This document shows positions 38,774-45,815 of a stretch of DNA of 64,000 nucleotides, in pieces; positions within the stretch are counted from its first letter, which is position 1; each line of letters starts with the position of its first letter. Both the position numbers and the translations under genes were made by a program. Origin of the DNA: Chloracidobacterium thermophilum B. GTDB lineage: Bacteria > Acidobacteriota > Blastocatellia > Chloracidobacteriales > Chloracidobacteriaceae. The stretch is from assembly GCF_000226295.1 (NCBI RefSeq), contig NC_016025.1:186001-250000 (forward strand), in the 5' to 3' direction. The notes beneath the pieces were generated by a model. That model was not told the origin of the DNA. It saw nothing but the letters and a program-made list of their open reading frames with translations, and made no database searches.

Positions 38774-39665
38774 ATGAAAACATCACATACCTTCGGCGGT
38801 GATTGGACAGAGCAAAAGCTGGAGCGGCTCCAAAAGTATCTGAAGGCTTATACGACGATATTTACAAAGAATGAACGTGCTCAGAGTCTGATCCCGATTT
38901 ACGTGGATGCATTTGCCGGTACTGGCTACCGCACCAGCCCGCTGCAACTGACTAAATCATTGAAGCTTTTTGAAGAATTTACCGAGCCGGAAGTTGACAA
39001 TTTTTTAAAAGGAAGTGCCCGGCTGGCGTTGGAAGTTGAGCCTTCATTTCAAAAGTATATTTTCATTGAGCAAAATACCGCCCGTGTAGAAGAACTACAG
39101 AAATTACAGACCATCTTTCCCCAAAAACAAGGCAATATCCAAATTATCCAGAGTGATGCAAACAGTTGGCTGCAAGGTTGGTGCCGTGGTACAGACTGAA
39201 AAAGACACCGGGCAGTAGTATTCCTCGATCCCTACGGAATGCAGGTGGAGTGGACACTGATTGAGGCGCTTGCCAAAACGAAGGCTATTGATTTGTGGCT
39301 ACTGTTTCCACCTGGCATGGCAGTAAATCGCCTGCTGACGAAGGGAGGAAAACCACCAGCGGCTTGGGAACAGGCATTGACACGAGTGTTTGGTACTGAA
39401 GATTGGCGTAAGAATTTTCTACTCACAAAAGACTGAGCCGACGTTGTTTGGTGATATTGATGTCACTGTTAAGGAAGCAGACTTTGTGAAAATCGGGAAA
39501 TTCTTTGTCAACCGGTTGAAGACAGTTTTCAGCGAAGTTGCTGAAAACCCCTTGCCACTGCGAAACAGTCGAAACACGCCACTTTACCTGCTTTGCTTTG
39601 CGGCAGGGAATCCGAGAGGTGCCAAGACGGCAGTGAGGATCGCGCAACATATCCTGAGACCGTAA
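38774..39665 (+). pseudogene. tcmP: Three-Cys-motif partner protein (TcmP), degraded
   Basis: The frame from 38774 reads as TcmP (MKTSHTFGGDWTEQKLERLQ, YVDAFAGTGYR) and hits a TGA at 39197-39199. In the same frame it resumes as RAVVFLDPYGMQVEW and LWLLFPPGMAVNRLL, so a Trp codon TGG probably became TGA. A second lesion is an extra T in the TTTT run at 39415-39418: removing it turns the end into KNFYSQKTEPTLFGD and leads to [15 protein letters not shown] and a stop at 39665. TcmP is a Rossmann, methyltransferase-like partner of the Gp37/Gp68 family protein that follows three bases later. The DNA is visibly AT-richer than its surroundings, suggesting transfer. Confidence 0.88.
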
Positions 39666-39667
39666 CC

Positions 39668-40405
39668 ATGGCTGACAATTCAAAAATCGAATGGACTGAA
39701 GCCACCTGGAACCCAGTGACAGGTTGTTCCAAGATTAGTGATGGCTGCAAAAATTGTTATGCAGAGCGGTTGGCGTCACGCTTACGGGTCATGGGGAGCG
39801 CCCGGTATCGCAACGGCTTTGACATCACCCTGCATGCTGATCTGCTGGAGATGCCCAAACGATGGCGCAAGCCGCGTGTGGTCTTTGTCAACTCTATGAG
39901 CGACTTGTTTCACGATCAGGTACCGTTGGAATTCATCCAGCGTGTGTTCGACACGATGCAGAATTGCCCGCAGCACACTTTTCAGGTGCTTACCAAACGC
40001 ACAGCGCGGCTGCGCGCCATAGCCGACAAATTGCCTTGGCCGAAAAACGTCTGGATGGGCGTTAGTGTAGAAAACGCTGCCGTAATGCACCGGATTGATG
40101 ATTTGCGTGCTGTGCCGGCCGCAGTACGGTTTCTGTCCTGTGAACCTTTGCTGGGACCGATGCAGGACCTGAGCTTGGAAAGTATTCACTGGGTTATTGT
40201 CGGAGGTGAATCCGGCCCCCATGCACGTCCAATAGACAAAGCCTGGGTGATGGGAATCCTGCGGCAGTGTCGGCAGGCTGGCGTTCCATTCTTTTTCAAG
40301 CAATGGGGTGGGGTGCGCAAGGACTTGACCGGACGTAAGCTGGAGGGTCGTACTTACGACGAAATGCCGTATCAATCCGCCGCTTTTTTGACCGCATGTG
40401 GATGA
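39668..40405 (+). CDS. Phage Gp37/Gp68-type three-Cys-motif protein (DUF5131)
   Basis: A 245-aa protein with the family N-terminus [20 protein letters not shown] followed by [14 protein letters not shown]; the three cysteines (C-x5-C-x2-C) name the motif. Other marks are [38 protein letters not shown] and [11 protein letters not shown]. The fold looks like a radical-SAM-type barrel, but the activity is not established. It is normally found beside TcmP and in phages. Here it is intact while its partner is broken. Confidence 0.9.
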
Positions 40406-40449: not shown

Positions 40450-41034
40450 TCAGCAGCGGAGAAAATTGGCCAGGATGCGCTGCCCCAACGGCGTTCCAAT
40501 GGATTCAGGGTGAAACTGGACACCGTACACCGGCCAATCCCGATGCTGAAGCGCCATGATGATGCCTTCCACGGCGTCACGCGCGGTGACCATCAGGCAG
40601 TCCGGCAGTGTGGCTTCGTCCGCCACCAGCGAGTGGTAGCGCATGGCCGCAAAGCGTGGCGGAAGTCCGTCAAACAGCGGTGAATCGGCGGTAATCACCA
40701 TCTCCGATGCCTTGCCGTGAACGATGCGTGGTGCCTGGACAGCGCGCCCGCCATAGGCAACGGCAATCCCCTGGTGTCCCAGGCAGACGCCCAGAATCGG
40801 TGCCGCCAGTTCGGTGGCTGCCAGCAGGATGTCCCGACAGACGCCAAAATCACGCGGGTTGTCGGGACGCCCGGGCCCCGGCGACAGGACGATGCGCGTT
40901 GGTCGCCAGTCCCGCAAGGTGGCCAGGTTCACAGCATCGTTGCGGACGACAACCACTTCTTCGGCTGTCTGCATTTGCAGCATCTGGTACAGGTTGAAGG
41001 TAAACGAATCGTAGTTGTCAACAATGACGATCAT
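40450..41034 (-). CDS. trpG: Anthranilate synthase component II (glutamine amidotransferase)
   Basis: A 194-aa class I amidotransferase: MIVIVDNYDSFTFNLYQ start, LSPGPGRPDNPRDFG, nucleophile loop GVCLGHQGIAVAYGG and FHPES near the end. It supplies ammonia from glutamine to TrpE. It could double as PabA for folate synthesis, as no separate pabA is seen. The start at 41034 is fixed by the family N-terminus and lies 25 bases after the trpE stop. It is the last gene of the attenuated aroF-trpE-trpG unit. Confidence 0.94.
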   Translation of the reverse strand: MIVIVDNYDSFTFNLYQMLQMQTAEEVVVVRNDAVNLATLRDWRPTRIVLSPGPGRPDNPRDFGVCRDILLAATELAAPILGVCLGHQGIAVAYGGRAVQAPRIVHGKASEMVITADSPLFDGLPPRFAAMRYHSLVADEATLPDCLMVTARDAVEGIIMALQHRDWPVYGVQFHPESIGTPLGQRILANFLRC

Positions 41035-41059
41035 ACGGGTCAGGGCCGTTGGAGCGCCG

Positions 41060-42547
41060 TTATACCGGAGCCGACGGGCCTTCATGGGTGGAGTGCCGTG
41101 TTGGGGGCAGGGTTTGCTGTTCGGCCAGATAGAGCGCCGTCAGGACGCTGCGCGCCTTGTTACGAGTTTCTTCGGCTTCGAGCTGCGGCTGCGAGTCAAA
41201 GACGACACCGGCCCCGGCGTTGATGTGGGCGATGCCGTCCTGCATGAGCGCCGAGCGGATGGCAATGGCGCTGTCCGCCTGGCCGGCAAAGTCCACATAA
41301 CCCACCATGCCGGCATAGAGGCCGCGCCGTTCGGGTTCAAGCGTCGCCAGCAGTTCCATGGCGCGGATTTTCGGCGCGCCGGTCACGGTGCCGCGCGGAA
41401 AGCAGCTTCGGATGACATCAAAGGCCGTCAACCCCGGACGCAGTTGCCCGGTCACGTCCGTTGCCAAGTGCATCACGTGGGTGTAGCGCACCAGACGCGC
41501 CACTTCACCAGTGGCGACTGTTCCCACCTGCGCCACCCGGCCGACATCGTTGCGCGCCAGATCAACCAGCATCCGGTGCTCGGCCAGTTCCTTTTCGTCG
41601 GCGCACAGCGCCCGGGCCAGCGCCTCATCTTCTTCCGGCGTCTCGCCGCGTGGGCGCGTGCCGGCCAGGGCCCGCAGCGTGATGCTGCCCTGCCGCACCG
41701 TGACGAACGTTTCCGGCGAAGAGCCAACGTAGGTAAAGCCCGGTGTTCCCGTAAAGCGTCCGAACTTGAGACAGTAGGCATAGGGTGATGGATTGAGCGC
41801 CACCAGCGAGCGGTACACCGTAAATGGCGTCGCACTGATCCGACGTGAAAAGCGCCGGGAAGGCACAATCTGAAAGACCTCGCCGGCCGTGATATAGGCG
41901 CGGCAGCGTTCAACCAGCGCGCCGAACGCGGCATCGTCGAGTGAGGTCTCGGCATCGGCAAACACGTCGCGGCTGCGTAACGACGCCGTGGCATCGCGCA
42001 GTGGTGGGAGCGGCGTCCGGCGGCAGACCCGTTCGTATATCTGCTCGACAATGGCCTCGCCACCGTAGGAGACAATGTGCAGCTTGCGGTAGAGATGGTC
42101 AAACACCACAAAGGTGTCATAGAGACCAAAGCAGCCGTCCGGCGCGGCATAGGGTATCGCCGTCTGGATGGGAATGCCGGCCAGACAGGCGGTGGCCCCA
42201 TAACCAAGATAGCCGACAAAACCTCCCTTGAACGGCAGCATCGGCGGCAACGTTGGCATCTGGTCAGCAACCTGTGCCTGCTCGCGCTCCAGGATTTCAC
42301 ACAGAAACCGCAGTGGATCATCCGTCTGTGTCTGGCGCTCGGTCTGGCGGTGAAGGTCACAAACCGTCACGCGCCGGTCCTGAAAAGCCACGACCAGACG
42401 CGGCTCGATGCCGATGATGGAATAGCGCGCCAGGCGGGCGTCACCTTCGGCGCTTTCAAGCAGGAAGGCCACGTCGGAAGCAGCGGCCAGCTCATGGTAA
42501 AGGGCTGCCGGCGTTACGGCATCTGACAACACGGTAAGGATGCTCAT
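41060..42547 (-). CDS. trpE: Anthranilate synthase component I
   Basis: A 495-aa enzyme that turns chorismate and ammonia into anthranilate. The N-terminal [19 protein letters not shown] contains the LLES tryptophan-feedback element. The catalytic half has [53 protein letters not shown] and [21 protein letters not shown]. The ATG overlaps the TGA of the DAHP synthase gene by four bases, so they are translationally coupled. It is controlled by the upstream attenuator. Confidence 0.96.
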
Positions 42548-43374
42548 GCCGCACGCTCCACTGGGCAGGGAAGCTGGCGGCCAACCGCCTGCGCCACACG
42601 GGCTGTTTCACGGACAAGCTGCTCCAGCTCATCGAGCGACAACGCCTGGGCGGCATCCGAAACCGACTGCTGGGGAACAGGATGGCATTCCACGATGAGA
42701 CCGTCGGCCCCAACCGCCACGGCAGCCCGGGCAGCCGGGATGACCAGTTCCCGGCGACCGGTCGCATGGCTTGGATCAACGATGACCGGCAGGTGCGTCA
42801 GGCGCTTGAGCAGTGCCACCGCGCCCAGGTCAAGGACGTTGCGCGTGGCCGGGTCGAAGCTGCGAATTCCGCGTTCGCACAGGATAACCTGCTGATTGCC
42901 CCCGGCCAGAATGTACTCCGCCGCACCGAGCAGCTCCTCAATGGTGGCAGCCAGGCCACGTTTGAGCAGGACGGGTTTGCGTACCTGCCCGAGCGCCTTG
43001 AGCAGTTCAAAGTTCTGCATGTTGCGCGAGCCGACCTGGAAACAGTCGAAGACCTCGTAGGCGCGTTCGAGATGGGCCACCGACATCACTTCACTGACAA
43101 TGCCCAGCCCGTAGGCGCGCTTGATGTCGTGGAGAAGCTGGAGACCTTCGTCCTGAAGCCCTTGGAAGCTGTAGGGCGACGTGCGTGGCTTATAGACACC
43201 AGCCCGCAGCAACCGGATGTCGAGGCGGGTCAGACATTCTGCGACGGTGCGGAGTTGGGTTTCCGATTCGGCCGCACAGGGGCCGGCAATCACAACCATG
43301 GACGGCCCACCCACCGGGACACCGGCAATCGTGACCGTCGTATGTTGTGACGGGGAACTTTGGCGAACGAGCAT
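42544..43374 (-). CDS. aroF: DAHP synthase, type I-beta (first step of aromatic synthesis)
   Basis: A 276-aa enzyme that condenses PEP and erythrose-4-phosphate. Marks are [79 protein letters not shown] and [15 protein letters not shown]. The length and absence of an N-terminal ACT domain fit the simple I-beta (KDO8P-synthase-like) class. Its place as first structural gene behind a Trp attenuator suggests it is the tryptophan-regulated isozyme. Confidence 0.95.
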
Positions 43375-43401
43375 GGCAGCAGGTCCTCACTGGAAATGGC
43401 C

Positions 43402-43443
43402 AAAAGCAAAACCGCCGACCCCCACGCTTGGGAAGGTCGGCGG
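43402..43443 (-). terminator. Trp attenuator terminator
   Basis: The arms CCGCCGACC (43412-43420) and GGTCGGCGG (43435-43443), extended by CCCA/TGGG across a small bulge, are followed on the minus strand by TTTTGCTTTT. The terminator lies between the leader peptide and aroF. The segment TGGGAAGG (plus-strand 43429-43436) in its first transcribed arm is complementary to CCTTCCCA (43511-43518), which lies in the leader gene just after the Trp codons. That gives an alternative antiterminator pairing of eight bases, as expected for classic attenuation. Confidence 0.88.
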
Positions 43444-43472
43444 CTTCTGGAAAAATTTGGCGGAGTGTTGTT

Positions 43473-43571
43473 TCAGTCGTCAAGCACGCACGCCAGCGCA
43501 GCCGGTCGAGCCTTCCCATTGAGGCTCCACCAATACCAATAGCCGCTAAACGTAAAGCTGCGTACGTGCAT
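43473..43571 (-). CDS. trpL: Trp operon leader peptide
   Basis: A 32-codon reading frame begins at ATG 43571 and ends with TGA at 43473, 30 bases before the attenuator hairpin. Residues 11-15 are YWYWW: three Trp codons within five, in a short protein where Trp should be rare. When charged tRNA-Trp is scarce, the ribosome stalls there, frees the next segment to pair with the terminator arm, and aroF-trpE-trpG are transcribed. Two Tyr codons interleave, which may make it sensitive to tyrosine as well. The start lies 26 bases after the waaF stop, so the promoter is probably inside waaF. Confidence 0.87.
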   Translation of the reverse strand: MHVRSFTFSGYWYWWSLNGKARPAALACVLDD

Positions 43572-43596
43572 ACCGGAAACGAAAGCTGAAAGTTGG

Positions 43597-44670
43597 CTAC
43601 AGCCTAGCGTGACGCCACGCCGGATGCAAGTCCCGATGTTCCTCAAGGGTGGCAAGCAGCGCCTGATACACCATGTCGGGCGTTACACCGGTCAGGCAGC
43701 GGTGGTCAATCGGGCAGTCCTTGAGCAGGCAGGGCGCGCACGGAACGAGCTTGCGTACATGCCGCGCCGTCGGCGAAAAGGGCGAAATCTGGTTTGGGTC
43801 GGTCGGCCCGAAGATCGTCACCAGGGGACGGTCGAGCGCGGCCGCGACATAGGCCGGGCCCGTGTCGTTGCTGACCACGGCGGCGCACCGGGAAAGCAGG
43901 GCCACACTTTCCCGCAGGGACAGTTCACCGGCCAGGATCGTGACCCGTTCGGGGCGCTGCATCCCCTGACGGATGGCTTCACACAGGGGACGTTCACCCG
44001 GTGCGCCCACCAGAAACAGCGGCCAGTCATGCTCTGCGGCCAACCGGTCAAGCAGGGCGGTAAACGCCGCGGCCGGCCACTGTTTGGCGCGGCTGTTGGC
44101 GGCGCCGGGAACAACTGCCAGCGGGTGCGCAACCTGCCGGAGATCGGGCCGTTTGGCGTCGAGGGCCGCCTGCGCCGCCGCTGAGACGGGCAGCCGGTAG
44201 TCAGGCGTCTCATAGTTGACGTGGTTGGTGCCCGTCAGGTGGGCTTCCAGTTGGGCAACGAGGTCCAGATAGAAGTATAGCTGGTGCTTGCGTCGGGTGG
44301 CCGGCGTCACCGGGAAGGCATCCGTCAGCAGGAAGCGGCGGCCATCGGTGGCGAATCCGATACGGCGTGGAATGCGGGCCGCTGTGGCCAGCGCCGCGGC
44401 TTCAAAGGCGTTCTGGAAGAAAATGGCGGCGTCAAAGCGCCCGGCTTTGAGTTTGGCCACCCCGGAAAGGAAGGATTCCTGGCGGTTGTCGTACAGCAGC
44501 AGATCATCGGCCAACGGCGTGTCGGCAAACAGGTCGGCTACCCATGGGCGTACCATCAGCGTCAGGTGCGCCGTGGGAAACAAGCGCCGAAGTTCGCGCA
44601 GCGCCGGGAGCGTCATGATGCTGTCGCCAACCCAGTTGGTGCCGCGTACGAGCAACCGCTGAAACATCAT
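43597..44670 (-). CDS. waaF: Lipopolysaccharide heptosyltransferase II
   Basis: A 357-aa GT9 glycosyltransferase that adds heptose to the inner core of LPS from ADP-heptose, at the cytoplasmic face of the inner membrane. It has LLVRGTNWVGDSIMTLPALRE at the N-terminus, VPGAANSRAKQWPAAAFTAL, and the donor site SNDTGPAYVAAALDRPLVT, then FGPTDP. The C-terminus includes CAPCLLKDCPIDHRCL, the Cys motif common in WaaF. No other LPS gene is adjacent. It supports a Gram-negative envelope. Confidence 0.93.
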   Translation of the reverse strand: MMFQRLLVRGTNWVGDSIMTLPALRELRRLFPTAHLTLMVRPWVADLFADTPLADDLLLYDNRQESFLSGVAKLKAGRFDAAIFFQNAFEAAALATAARIPRRIGFATDGRRFLLTDAFPVTPATRRKHQLYFYLDLVAQLEAHLTGTNHVNYETPDYRLPVSAAAQAALDAKRPDLRQVAHPLAVVPGAANSRAKQWPAAAFTALLDRLAAEHDWPLFLVGAPGERPLCEAIRQGMQRPERVTILAGELSLRESVALLSRCAAVVSNDTGPAYVAAALDRPLVTIFGPTDPNQISPFSPTARHVRKLVPCAPCLLKDCPIDHRCLTGVTPDMVYQALLATLEEHRDLHPAWRHARL

Positions 44671-45572: not shown

Positions 45573-45815
45573 TCACCAGGCTTCATTTCCTACGGCAAAA
45601 CCCGTCTCGACTTCGGGATGAAGATTGTCCTCGGTGATACCTGCCAGCAATGCGTCAAGTGTCCAACCTGGCGCTGGAGCCGGAGTAATAATAATCTTGC
45701 CTTCGACGATACTGATTTCTACAAGTGAGTCATTTTGAAGCTGAGCTTCAGCAGCAAAGACTTTCGGTATTCGCAGGGCAAAACTGTTACCCCATTTCTG
45801 AATTTTTGCGAGCAT
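45573..45815 (-). CDS. mazE: MazE-type antitoxin (AbrB fold)
   Basis: An 80-aa protein with a swapped-hairpin AbrB/MazE DNA-binding domain: MLAKIQKWGNSFALRIPKVF, LQNDSLVEISIVEGKIIITP. The C-terminal tail (WTLDALLAGITEDNLHPEVE) is the toxin-binding extension of MazE. Its toxin gene is truncated, so it may persist as a regulator or an orphan antitoxin. A plausible promoter lies 29-56 bases upstream. Confidence 0.9.
   Translation of the reverse strand: MLAKIQKWGNSFALRIPKVFAAEAQLQNDSLVEISIVEGKIIITPAPAPGWTLDALLAGITEDNLHPEVETGFAVGNEAW

Follow-up and report, generated by a model that had tools for sequence, protein, structure and literature searches.

A candidate tryptophan attenuator with a mixed aromatic leader upstream of aroF-trpE-trpG in Chloracidobacterium thermophilum

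The window analyzed here is a stretch of 64,000 nucleotides (positions 186001-250000) of the 1.01-Mb contig C2 in the 3.70-Mb, two-contig genome of Chloracidobacterium thermophilum B. On the minus strand the end of waaF, a promoter-like motif overlapping the last waaF codons, a short open reading frame (ORF), a terminator, aroF, trpE and trpG follow each other in that order (Table 1), and the gene assignments downstream of the leader made in a first-pass annotation of this DNA hold. AroF covers positions 73-336 of the 338-position PRK08673 model, and among the matches listed its closest named relatives are Chloracidobacterium or Blastocatellia MAGs at 86% identity. A Shine-Dalgarno sequence (GAGGA, 43388-43384) precedes aroF, and trpG may alternatively start at Met18, in which case it would not overlap trpE. 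Elsewhere in the window, a protein resembling those of radical-SAM 'mobile pair A' is encoded at 39593-40405 (+), convergent with trpG and scoring far under the NCBIfam cut-off, and a small ORF at 45573-45815 (-) looks by eye like an AbrB/MazE-type antitoxin.

Table 1. Features of the aroF-trpE-trpG leader region and its neighbors, in window coordinates
Feature	Position	Strand	Description
waaF-like, LPS heptosyltransferase II	43597..44670	-	upstream neighbor, outside the switch; stop at 43597
putative sigma-70-like promoter	43601..43629	-	TTGCAT (43629-43624), 17-nt spacer, TAGGCT (43606-43601)
leader ORF, 32 codons, MHVRSFTFSGYWYWWSLNGKARPAALACVLDD	43473..43571	-	ATG at 43571, TGA 43475-43473
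protector hairpin P1:P2	43508..43527	-	GAGCCT (43527-43522):AGGCTC (43513-43508); MFE fold
antiterminator strand P2, TGGGAAGG	43511..43518	-	within leader codons 18-21
P3, CCTTCCCA	43429..43436	-	partner of P2, part of the terminator 5' arm
intrinsic terminator P3:P4 and T-rich tract	43402..43447	-	stem about 43447-43408, tract to 43402; MFE fold
aroF, DAHP synthase class I-beta, core only, 276 aa	42544..43374	-	ORF and domain match
trpE, anthranilate synthase component I	41060..42547	-	start overlaps the aroF stop codon
trpG, anthranilate synthase component II	40450..41085	-	ORF as listed

The aromatic codons of the leader are F6, F8, Y11, W12, Y13, W14 and W15. Three Trp codons (12, 14 and 15) within five had been noticed at first pass and are there in the sequence (Y-W-Y-W-W, 43541-43527); Phe codons 6 and 8 of the aromatic block and the missing Shine-Dalgarno sequence of the leader had been left out. 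By eye, no Shine-Dalgarno-like sequence was seen upstream of the leader ATG in the window or in the genus members. If translated, the leader would represent an initiation site without such a sequence, and leader formation without a ribosome binding site has been reported for ilvBNC of C. glutamicum, according to an entry in the reference list of PMC4046766. Trp-rich small ORFs by themselves are expected by chance: the window holds two with three Trp in five codons, and 43 occurred across 20 dinucleotide shuffles. The combination of such an ORF with a strong terminator behind it was found once in the window and in none of the 20 shuffles, and the same holds for ORFs with at least seven aromatics in 10 codons (one versus none).

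Directly past the Trp codons, GGGAAGG pairs with the first arm of the terminator (CCTTCCC). The 8-base complement from which an antiterminator had been proposed, TGGGAAGG:CCTTCCCA, is present as the core of a longer predicted duplex, TGGGAAGGCTCGACCGGCTGCGCTGG:CCAGAAGCCGCCGACCTTCCCA, at -30.7 kcal/mol. The hairpin P1:P2 overlaps P2 and would, as modeled, sequester it after the ribosome has passed. Folding of the RNA, suggested earlier as a check, returned the terminator hairpin in the MFE structure, and the fold of the whole leader region was more stable than that of shuffled sequences (z = -3.75; 0/200 shuffles equally stable).

The dependence of these pairings on ribosome position was computed by partition-function folding, with a ribosome set on each codon and the RNA masked as far as an offset of 13 nt, counted from the first A-site base. 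The RNA folded was the portion available before the second terminator arm is made, and folding was at equilibrium at 37 C, though the organism is thermophilic. With any of codons 6-15 in the A site, the predicted sequestration of the terminator 5' arm at locus L083 was 0.80-0.86, and all seven aromatic codons fall into this predicted antitermination stretch. Sequestration went from 0.62 down to 0.38 at codons 1-5, was 0.61 at codon 16 and 0.19-0.51 at codons 17-24 (climbing again to 0.4-0.5 at codons 23-24), and reached 0.02-0.09 at codons 25-32 and the stop. Ribosome-free RNA gave intermediate values (0.16-0.63). Offsets of 9-17 nt produced a similar profile in the three sequences tried (L083, L088, L090). 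Two values of L083 were lower: 0.4-0.5 for codon 6 with offsets of 9-11 nt, and 0.6 for codon 15 with an offset of 17 nt. When spacers were shuffled, the observed stall-minus-stop contrast was reached in 0, 0, 2, 5, 2, 0, 2, 0 and 17 of 60 shuffles for L083 to L091, in order; in the model, the contrast is thus good in seven of nine loci, modest in L086 and not significant in L091. Near the stop codon, L085, L086, L087 and L091 retain a sequestration of 0.36-0.60.

These results bear on whether something other than a stalled ribosome operates the switch. For attenuation through a bound protein or tRNA (TRAP, T-box), or through some other riboswitch, the only argument is that a terminator precedes aroF. 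Over the leader region, however, no Rfam family, whether the trp leader or any other leader model, reached its gathering score, and at E values up to 10 the sole match within 43350-43650 was a snoRNA model far under its gathering score. Since the aromatic codons are moreover in frame and inside the predicted competence stretch, we regard such a mechanism as highly improbable.

Instead, we consider it highly likely, from sequence and modeling, that the element is a ribosome-mediated transcription attenuator of aroF-trpE-trpG sensing mainly charged tRNA-Trp, and the first-pass reading of what the switch does is very probably right. RNA polymerase would start at the putative promoter in the end of waaF, and a ribosome would enter the 32-codon leader. 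When Trp-tRNA is scarce, the ribosome would stall at Trp codons 12, 14 or 15 and cover P1, leaving P2 (GGGAAGG and the next bases) free for P3. With P2:P3 formed there would be no terminator, and transcription would continue into aroF-trpE-trpG. When Trp-tRNA is ample, the ribosome would reach the stop codon and P2 would be covered or refolded with P1; P2 being unavailable, P3:P4 would pair and transcription would terminate. Promoter use, leader translation and the response to Trp are what we infer from the sequence and the folding model. In the same model, a stall at Phe6, Phe8, Tyr11 or Tyr13 would also antiterminate, and the codon content makes it possible that the leader senses Tyr and Phe.

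The arrangement is conserved in the family. Nine genomes of a family set of ten carry this AroF (loci L083-L091, of which L087, L086 and L091 are the same as L003, L004 and L009, respectively), with identities of 83-100% in seven genus members, the window's own included, and of 65-69% in two members of other genera. The tenth genome (G007) is without this aroF, its match being KDO8P synthase-like only. Each of the nine loci retains the leader ORF with two or three Trp codons, as well as the terminator and a P2:P3 pairing, and trpE adjoins aroF in eight, the contig of G005 ending inside aroF. No locus of the family keeps the genes without the Trp codons or the pairing, which is the observation that, according to the first-pass annotation, would have spoken against an attenuator. 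Among the seven genus leaders, F6, F8, Y11, W12 and W14 are invariant, Y13 is found in six and W15 in five, Trp15 being replaced by Arg in L087 and L091.

Conservation of the helices was examined at two levels. Inside the genus, the seven pairs of the P2:P3 core form in all seven members, with one A-U being G-U in one of them. Four further P2:P3 pairs form in 71.4% of cells counted, and P1:P2 is paired in 95.2% of cells with zero two-sided changes. No two-sided covariation was found in the leader helices at this level, because the helices hardly vary. Between genera, P2:P3 is GGCCTG(C):(G)CAGGCC in L089 and L090 (genomes G009 and G008) instead of GGGAAGG:CCTTCCC; the bases differ yet the pairing is kept, so both strands have changed. 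For the covariation suggested as a check, the genus offers no case, and the one change of both P2 and P3 lies between genera. No second attenuator was seen between aroF and trpE in G008 and G009.

Since waaF ends just upstream of the leader and is the upstream neighbor in all seven genus loci, the hairpin could be a mere terminator of the waaF transcript, with the ORF and the complementarity coincidental. However, in L089 and L090 waaF was not found in the 1.5 kb upstream, and leader, terminator and P2:P3 are still there. Further evidence against a waaF terminator is the promoter-like motif that overlaps the waaF end in the genus, where TTGCNN and TANNNT are spaced by 17 nt in six of seven members and by 18 in L087 (no match to this rule was found within 110 nt upstream of the leaders in L089 and L090), and the absence from shuffles of an ORF combined with a strong terminator. 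We find this explanation very improbable. A second alternative is that the ORF encodes a functional small peptide and that regulation is unrelated to stalling, and the constant ORF length of 99 nt in all seven genus members could be taken in its favor. The leader ORF displays no third-codon-position bias, however (variable sites 12/14/10 by position in the genus), so that coding by itself is not demonstrated for it, and the residues following the Trp codons differ between sub-lineages (KARPAALACVLDD versus KASTGRPARAIDD) while the RNA pairing stays. The missing bias would fit a sequence that is selected for its RNA pairing and its aromatic codons and not for the peptide, and a functional peptide is in our view exceedingly improbable.

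That AroF is the sole DAHP synthase of the genome is ruled out by a second PF00793 protein (G000:C1:1173881-1174762), which has the best score in the genome (308 bits) and which, by score and length only, would belong to class I-alpha of the DAHP synthases. A third gene matching PF00793 is KDO8P synthase-like, and no class II DAHP synthase was found in the genome. The first-pass claim that control extends to the first step of the aromatic pathway stands insofar as aroF lies behind the switch, but, given the second DAHP synthase-family protein, the enzyme behind the switch is not the only one for that step. Upstream of this other gene and of two PF00697 (trpF-like) genes no terminator-backed leader was found; one W-rich ORF, with no terminator, lies upstream of the former.

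We extended the analysis to the rest of the class Blastocatellia. A model of the genus leader (R2), run with strict filters over 199 Acidobacteriota genomes, gave nine matches: three in the genus, a full-length one in G124 (E 4e-8) and five others at E 0.0003-0.004; the leaders of G008 and G009 were not recovered. In G124 (L229) a leader (MTTTNYNSRTINAAWYWWSVN...) and terminator lie upstream of aroF-trpE, with MTTTNYNSRTINAAWYWWSVNVGG... preceding the terminator, an N-extended DAHP synthase gene and then trpE. By eye, its P2:P3 differs (UUGGCGGC:GCUGCCAA, one G-U). A near-identical leader and terminator with the same gene arrangement are present in G112 (L232), and the remaining 18 of 20 genomes examined had no such leader in the stretch fetched. 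L229 and L232, with their AAWYWWSVNVGG leader, belong to another family of the class.

W-rich leaders with terminators also occur directly before trpE. The 82 upstream regions of trpE came from a pool of 123 genomes of the class, family members excluded, in which TrpE had a match; 19 of the 82 contained such a leader by a uniform rule, as compared to 2/410 shuffles, and 63 did not. Under a stricter rule of at least three Trp in six codons the counts were 9/82 and 0/410. Examples are L135, L139, L152, L153, L163, L179, L194, L199 and L204. An earlier inspection by eye had set aside L160, L178 and L201 (distant or weak terminator), rows lacking a terminator, and L145 (weak), whereas the count of 19 follows the uniform rule and includes L146. 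Most of 12 simulated trpE leaders were high in the stall state and low at the stop, the effect being weak in L166, L193 and L199. With such leaders in 19 of 82 regions, candidate Trp attenuation recurs in the class, the leader of the window being one instance. The first-pass statement that the mechanism is best known from Proteobacteria consequently needs qualification, also since Trp attenuation is reported, in an excerpt of PMC11802643, for the actinobacterium C. glutamicum. Of the 21 further DAHP synthase loci in this class (L102-L122), none had a terminator; in L102, L103 and L108, aromatic- or Phe-rich small ORFs lie ~260-280 nt before the DAHP synthase gene, with no terminator passing the rule. 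Among control regions upstream of KDO8P synthase genes, 1/10 had a W-rich ORF with a weak terminator.

Mixed aromatic leaders were also found in cyanobacteria. All 24 cyanobacterial loci among the best 80 AroF relatives (within L005-L046) have an aromatic leader ORF before the DAHP synthase gene, and 23 have at least two in series, as in L010 (2656-2943) with MFATRSYFYFWYWKVRPE and MTLFSNWYYGFYFWPRRSSG. Terminators and pairing antiterminators are present in most of these loci, and no terminator passing the rule was found behind the second leader in L006, L017 and L036. Every one of 43 extracted leader-terminator units contains Phe, Tyr and Trp codons, the units having been chosen by at least five aromatics in 10 and not by the presence of all three kinds. 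The antiterminator of the first leader covaries. In 24 sequences it is paired in 93.3% of cells (at most 54.2% when slid), with 27 two-sided cells versus 7.5 in shuffles, a covariation score of 0.366 versus 0.124 and two-sided changes in five of 10 pairs (reached by 24/500 shuffles); further pair types were not above shuffles. The second-leader antiterminator, aligned from 18 of 19 units (L015 left out), is weaker: 86.0% of cells are paired and 13 are two-sided, versus 5.4 in shuffles, and neither the pairs with two-sided changes nor the pair types exceeded shuffles. A model of the first leader matched exactly once in each of 51 of the 145 genomes in the class to which G340, the source of L016, belongs, and in none of the other 94, some of the 51 having supplied model sequences. 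A DAHP synthase gene lies behind all eleven matches checked, six of which contain model-building sequences. Rfam identified no leader family in 18 loci (11 cyanobacterial), two cobalamin riboswitches being the only matches. In a quick tree of AroF from 105 of 107 loci, with leader labels set by hand, the family's AroF groups with cyanobacteria and a Vampirovibrionales (SH-aLRT 95), and a leader is present in 32 of the 33 rows of this clade and missing only from the Vampirovibrionales row.

A wider association between leaders and the architecture of DAHP synthase did not hold. In the raw data a leader was found at 33/51 core-only and 7/56 N-extended enzymes (shuffled control, 2/535), as if attenuation had replaced a lost allosteric domain in the core-only proteins. 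We reject this because the association stems from one clade: outside the nine-locus family and the cyanobacteria, a hand count gave 2/20 core-only and 6/54 N-extended. L089 and L012 were classed as N-extended solely because their ORF is readable further upstream. Aromatic leader ORFs with terminators were also seen before DAHP synthase genes in L023, L025, L039, L042, L044, L055, L059 and L075, which span Ignavibacteriota, Bacillota, Acidobacteriaceae, Chloroflexota, an alphaproteobacterium and Desulfarculaceae.

Because aroF feeds the pathway common to all three amino acids, it could be hypothesized that the switch reads Phe, Tyr and Trp together, with Trp as only one input. The location of all seven aromatic codons inside the predicted antitermination stretch and their near-complete retention in the genus favor this hypothesis, as does the mixture of Phe, Tyr and Trp in the cyanobacterial DAHP synthase leaders. 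Moreover, over a span of at most 10 codons that closes with the last Trp, Phe or Tyr accounted for 10/28 non-Trp codons in aroF-trpE leaders and for 7/116 in trpE-first leaders (Fisher p = 0.0001, Mann-Whitney p = 0.003). However, this comparison should be interpreted with caution since it was made post hoc, with 18 trpE-first leaders (L146 excluded) but only four aroF-trpE lineages, each represented by a single sequence, and since the leaders of L089 and G124 have one Phe/Tyr each in the counted stretch. The second DAHP synthase-family protein also argues against it, as does the AroR leader of C. glutamicum (Phe-Tyr-Phe), which, as stated in part of PMC11802643, answers to Phe and not to Tyr. 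Combined sensing of the three amino acids is thus possible, although we lean toward a switch that responds mainly to Trp.

Across these leaders the codon mix suggests a simple rule, in that the leader content mirrors the position of the controlled enzyme in the pathway: mostly Trp before trpE, mixed before aroF-trpE, and Phe, Tyr and Trp before a lone DAHP synthase gene. We tentatively propose, as a view that we hold to be somewhat less probable than its negation, that the window's element is part of a cross-phylum class of Phe, Tyr and Trp attenuators of DAHP synthase, tandem in cyanobacteria and maybe shared between Cyanobacteria and Chloracidobacteriaceae together with the enzyme gene, whose codon mix follows pathway position. 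The Phe/Tyr content and the likeness to the cyanobacterial tandem leaders are, on this hypothesis, the less ordinary part of our results. The tandem leaders themselves represent a candidate two-stage control of the enzyme with which the aromatic pathway begins, and they bear on the statement of 2016, in an excerpt of PMC4833913, that there were 'no reliable data' on attenuation in cyanobacteria. A limited literature search returned nothing on tryptophan attenuation or the regulation of trp biosynthesis in Chloracidobacterium, no report of tryptophan leader-peptide attenuation in Acidobacteria, and no report of leader-peptide attenuation of a cyanobacterial DAHP synthase. The kind of regulation is itself already known (the trpL type); what is new, as far as this search goes, is the member in Acidobacteriota, a little-studied phylum for which ribosome-mediated Trp attenuation now has a well-supported candidate.

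In E. coli, trpL is a short ORF with closely spaced Trp codons, followed by the 1:2, 2:3 and 3:4 pairings and a terminator before the trpE-containing operon. The window's leader is alike in its short ORF with clustered Trp codons, in the predicted 2:3 and 3:4 pairings, with a putative 1:2 hairpin, and in the terminator ahead of a trpE operon. It differs in that aroF is the first gene, that the ORF, of 32 codons, has Tyr codons between its Trp codons and Phe codons before them, that no Shine-Dalgarno sequence was seen and no match to the Rfam trp leader obtained, and that the phylum is Acidobacteriota. Attenuation by Trp-tRNA in the E. coli trp operon is described in part of PMC11802643. The AroR leader before aroF of C. 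glutamicum, for which attenuation is stated in excerpts of PMC4046766 and PMC11802643 (citing Neshat et al. 2014), is likewise an aromatic leader peptide before a DAHP synthase gene, and here too Phe and Tyr codons lie in the computed stall stretch ahead of such a gene. AroR, however, carries Phe-Tyr-Phe and reportedly answers to Phe, whereas the window's leader is dominated by Trp and has trpE-trpG behind it. Predicted attenuators before several operons containing class I-beta DAHP synthase genes appear in an excerpt of PMC1173090, and an excerpt of PMC1262725 states that no conserved RNA regulatory structures lie upstream of Phe and Tyr operons in Actinobacteria. The uORFC-13-1 motif of Acholeplasma, as given in part of PMC8632094, is also a candidate aromatic uORF with a terminator before aroF; its lineage is different, its codons are for Phe and it has a consensus structure of its own. 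The Blastocatellia trpE leaders share the W-rich ORF, the terminator and, in most of those simulated, a similar folding switch, but theirs are mostly Trp-only blocks with no aroF between leader and trpE. Finally, the cyanobacterial leaders resemble the window's in the aromatic leader, in the antiterminator overlapping the terminator and in AroF proteins of one clade in the quick tree; they differ in being two in series and dominated by Phe and Tyr, with no trpE in the stretches examined.
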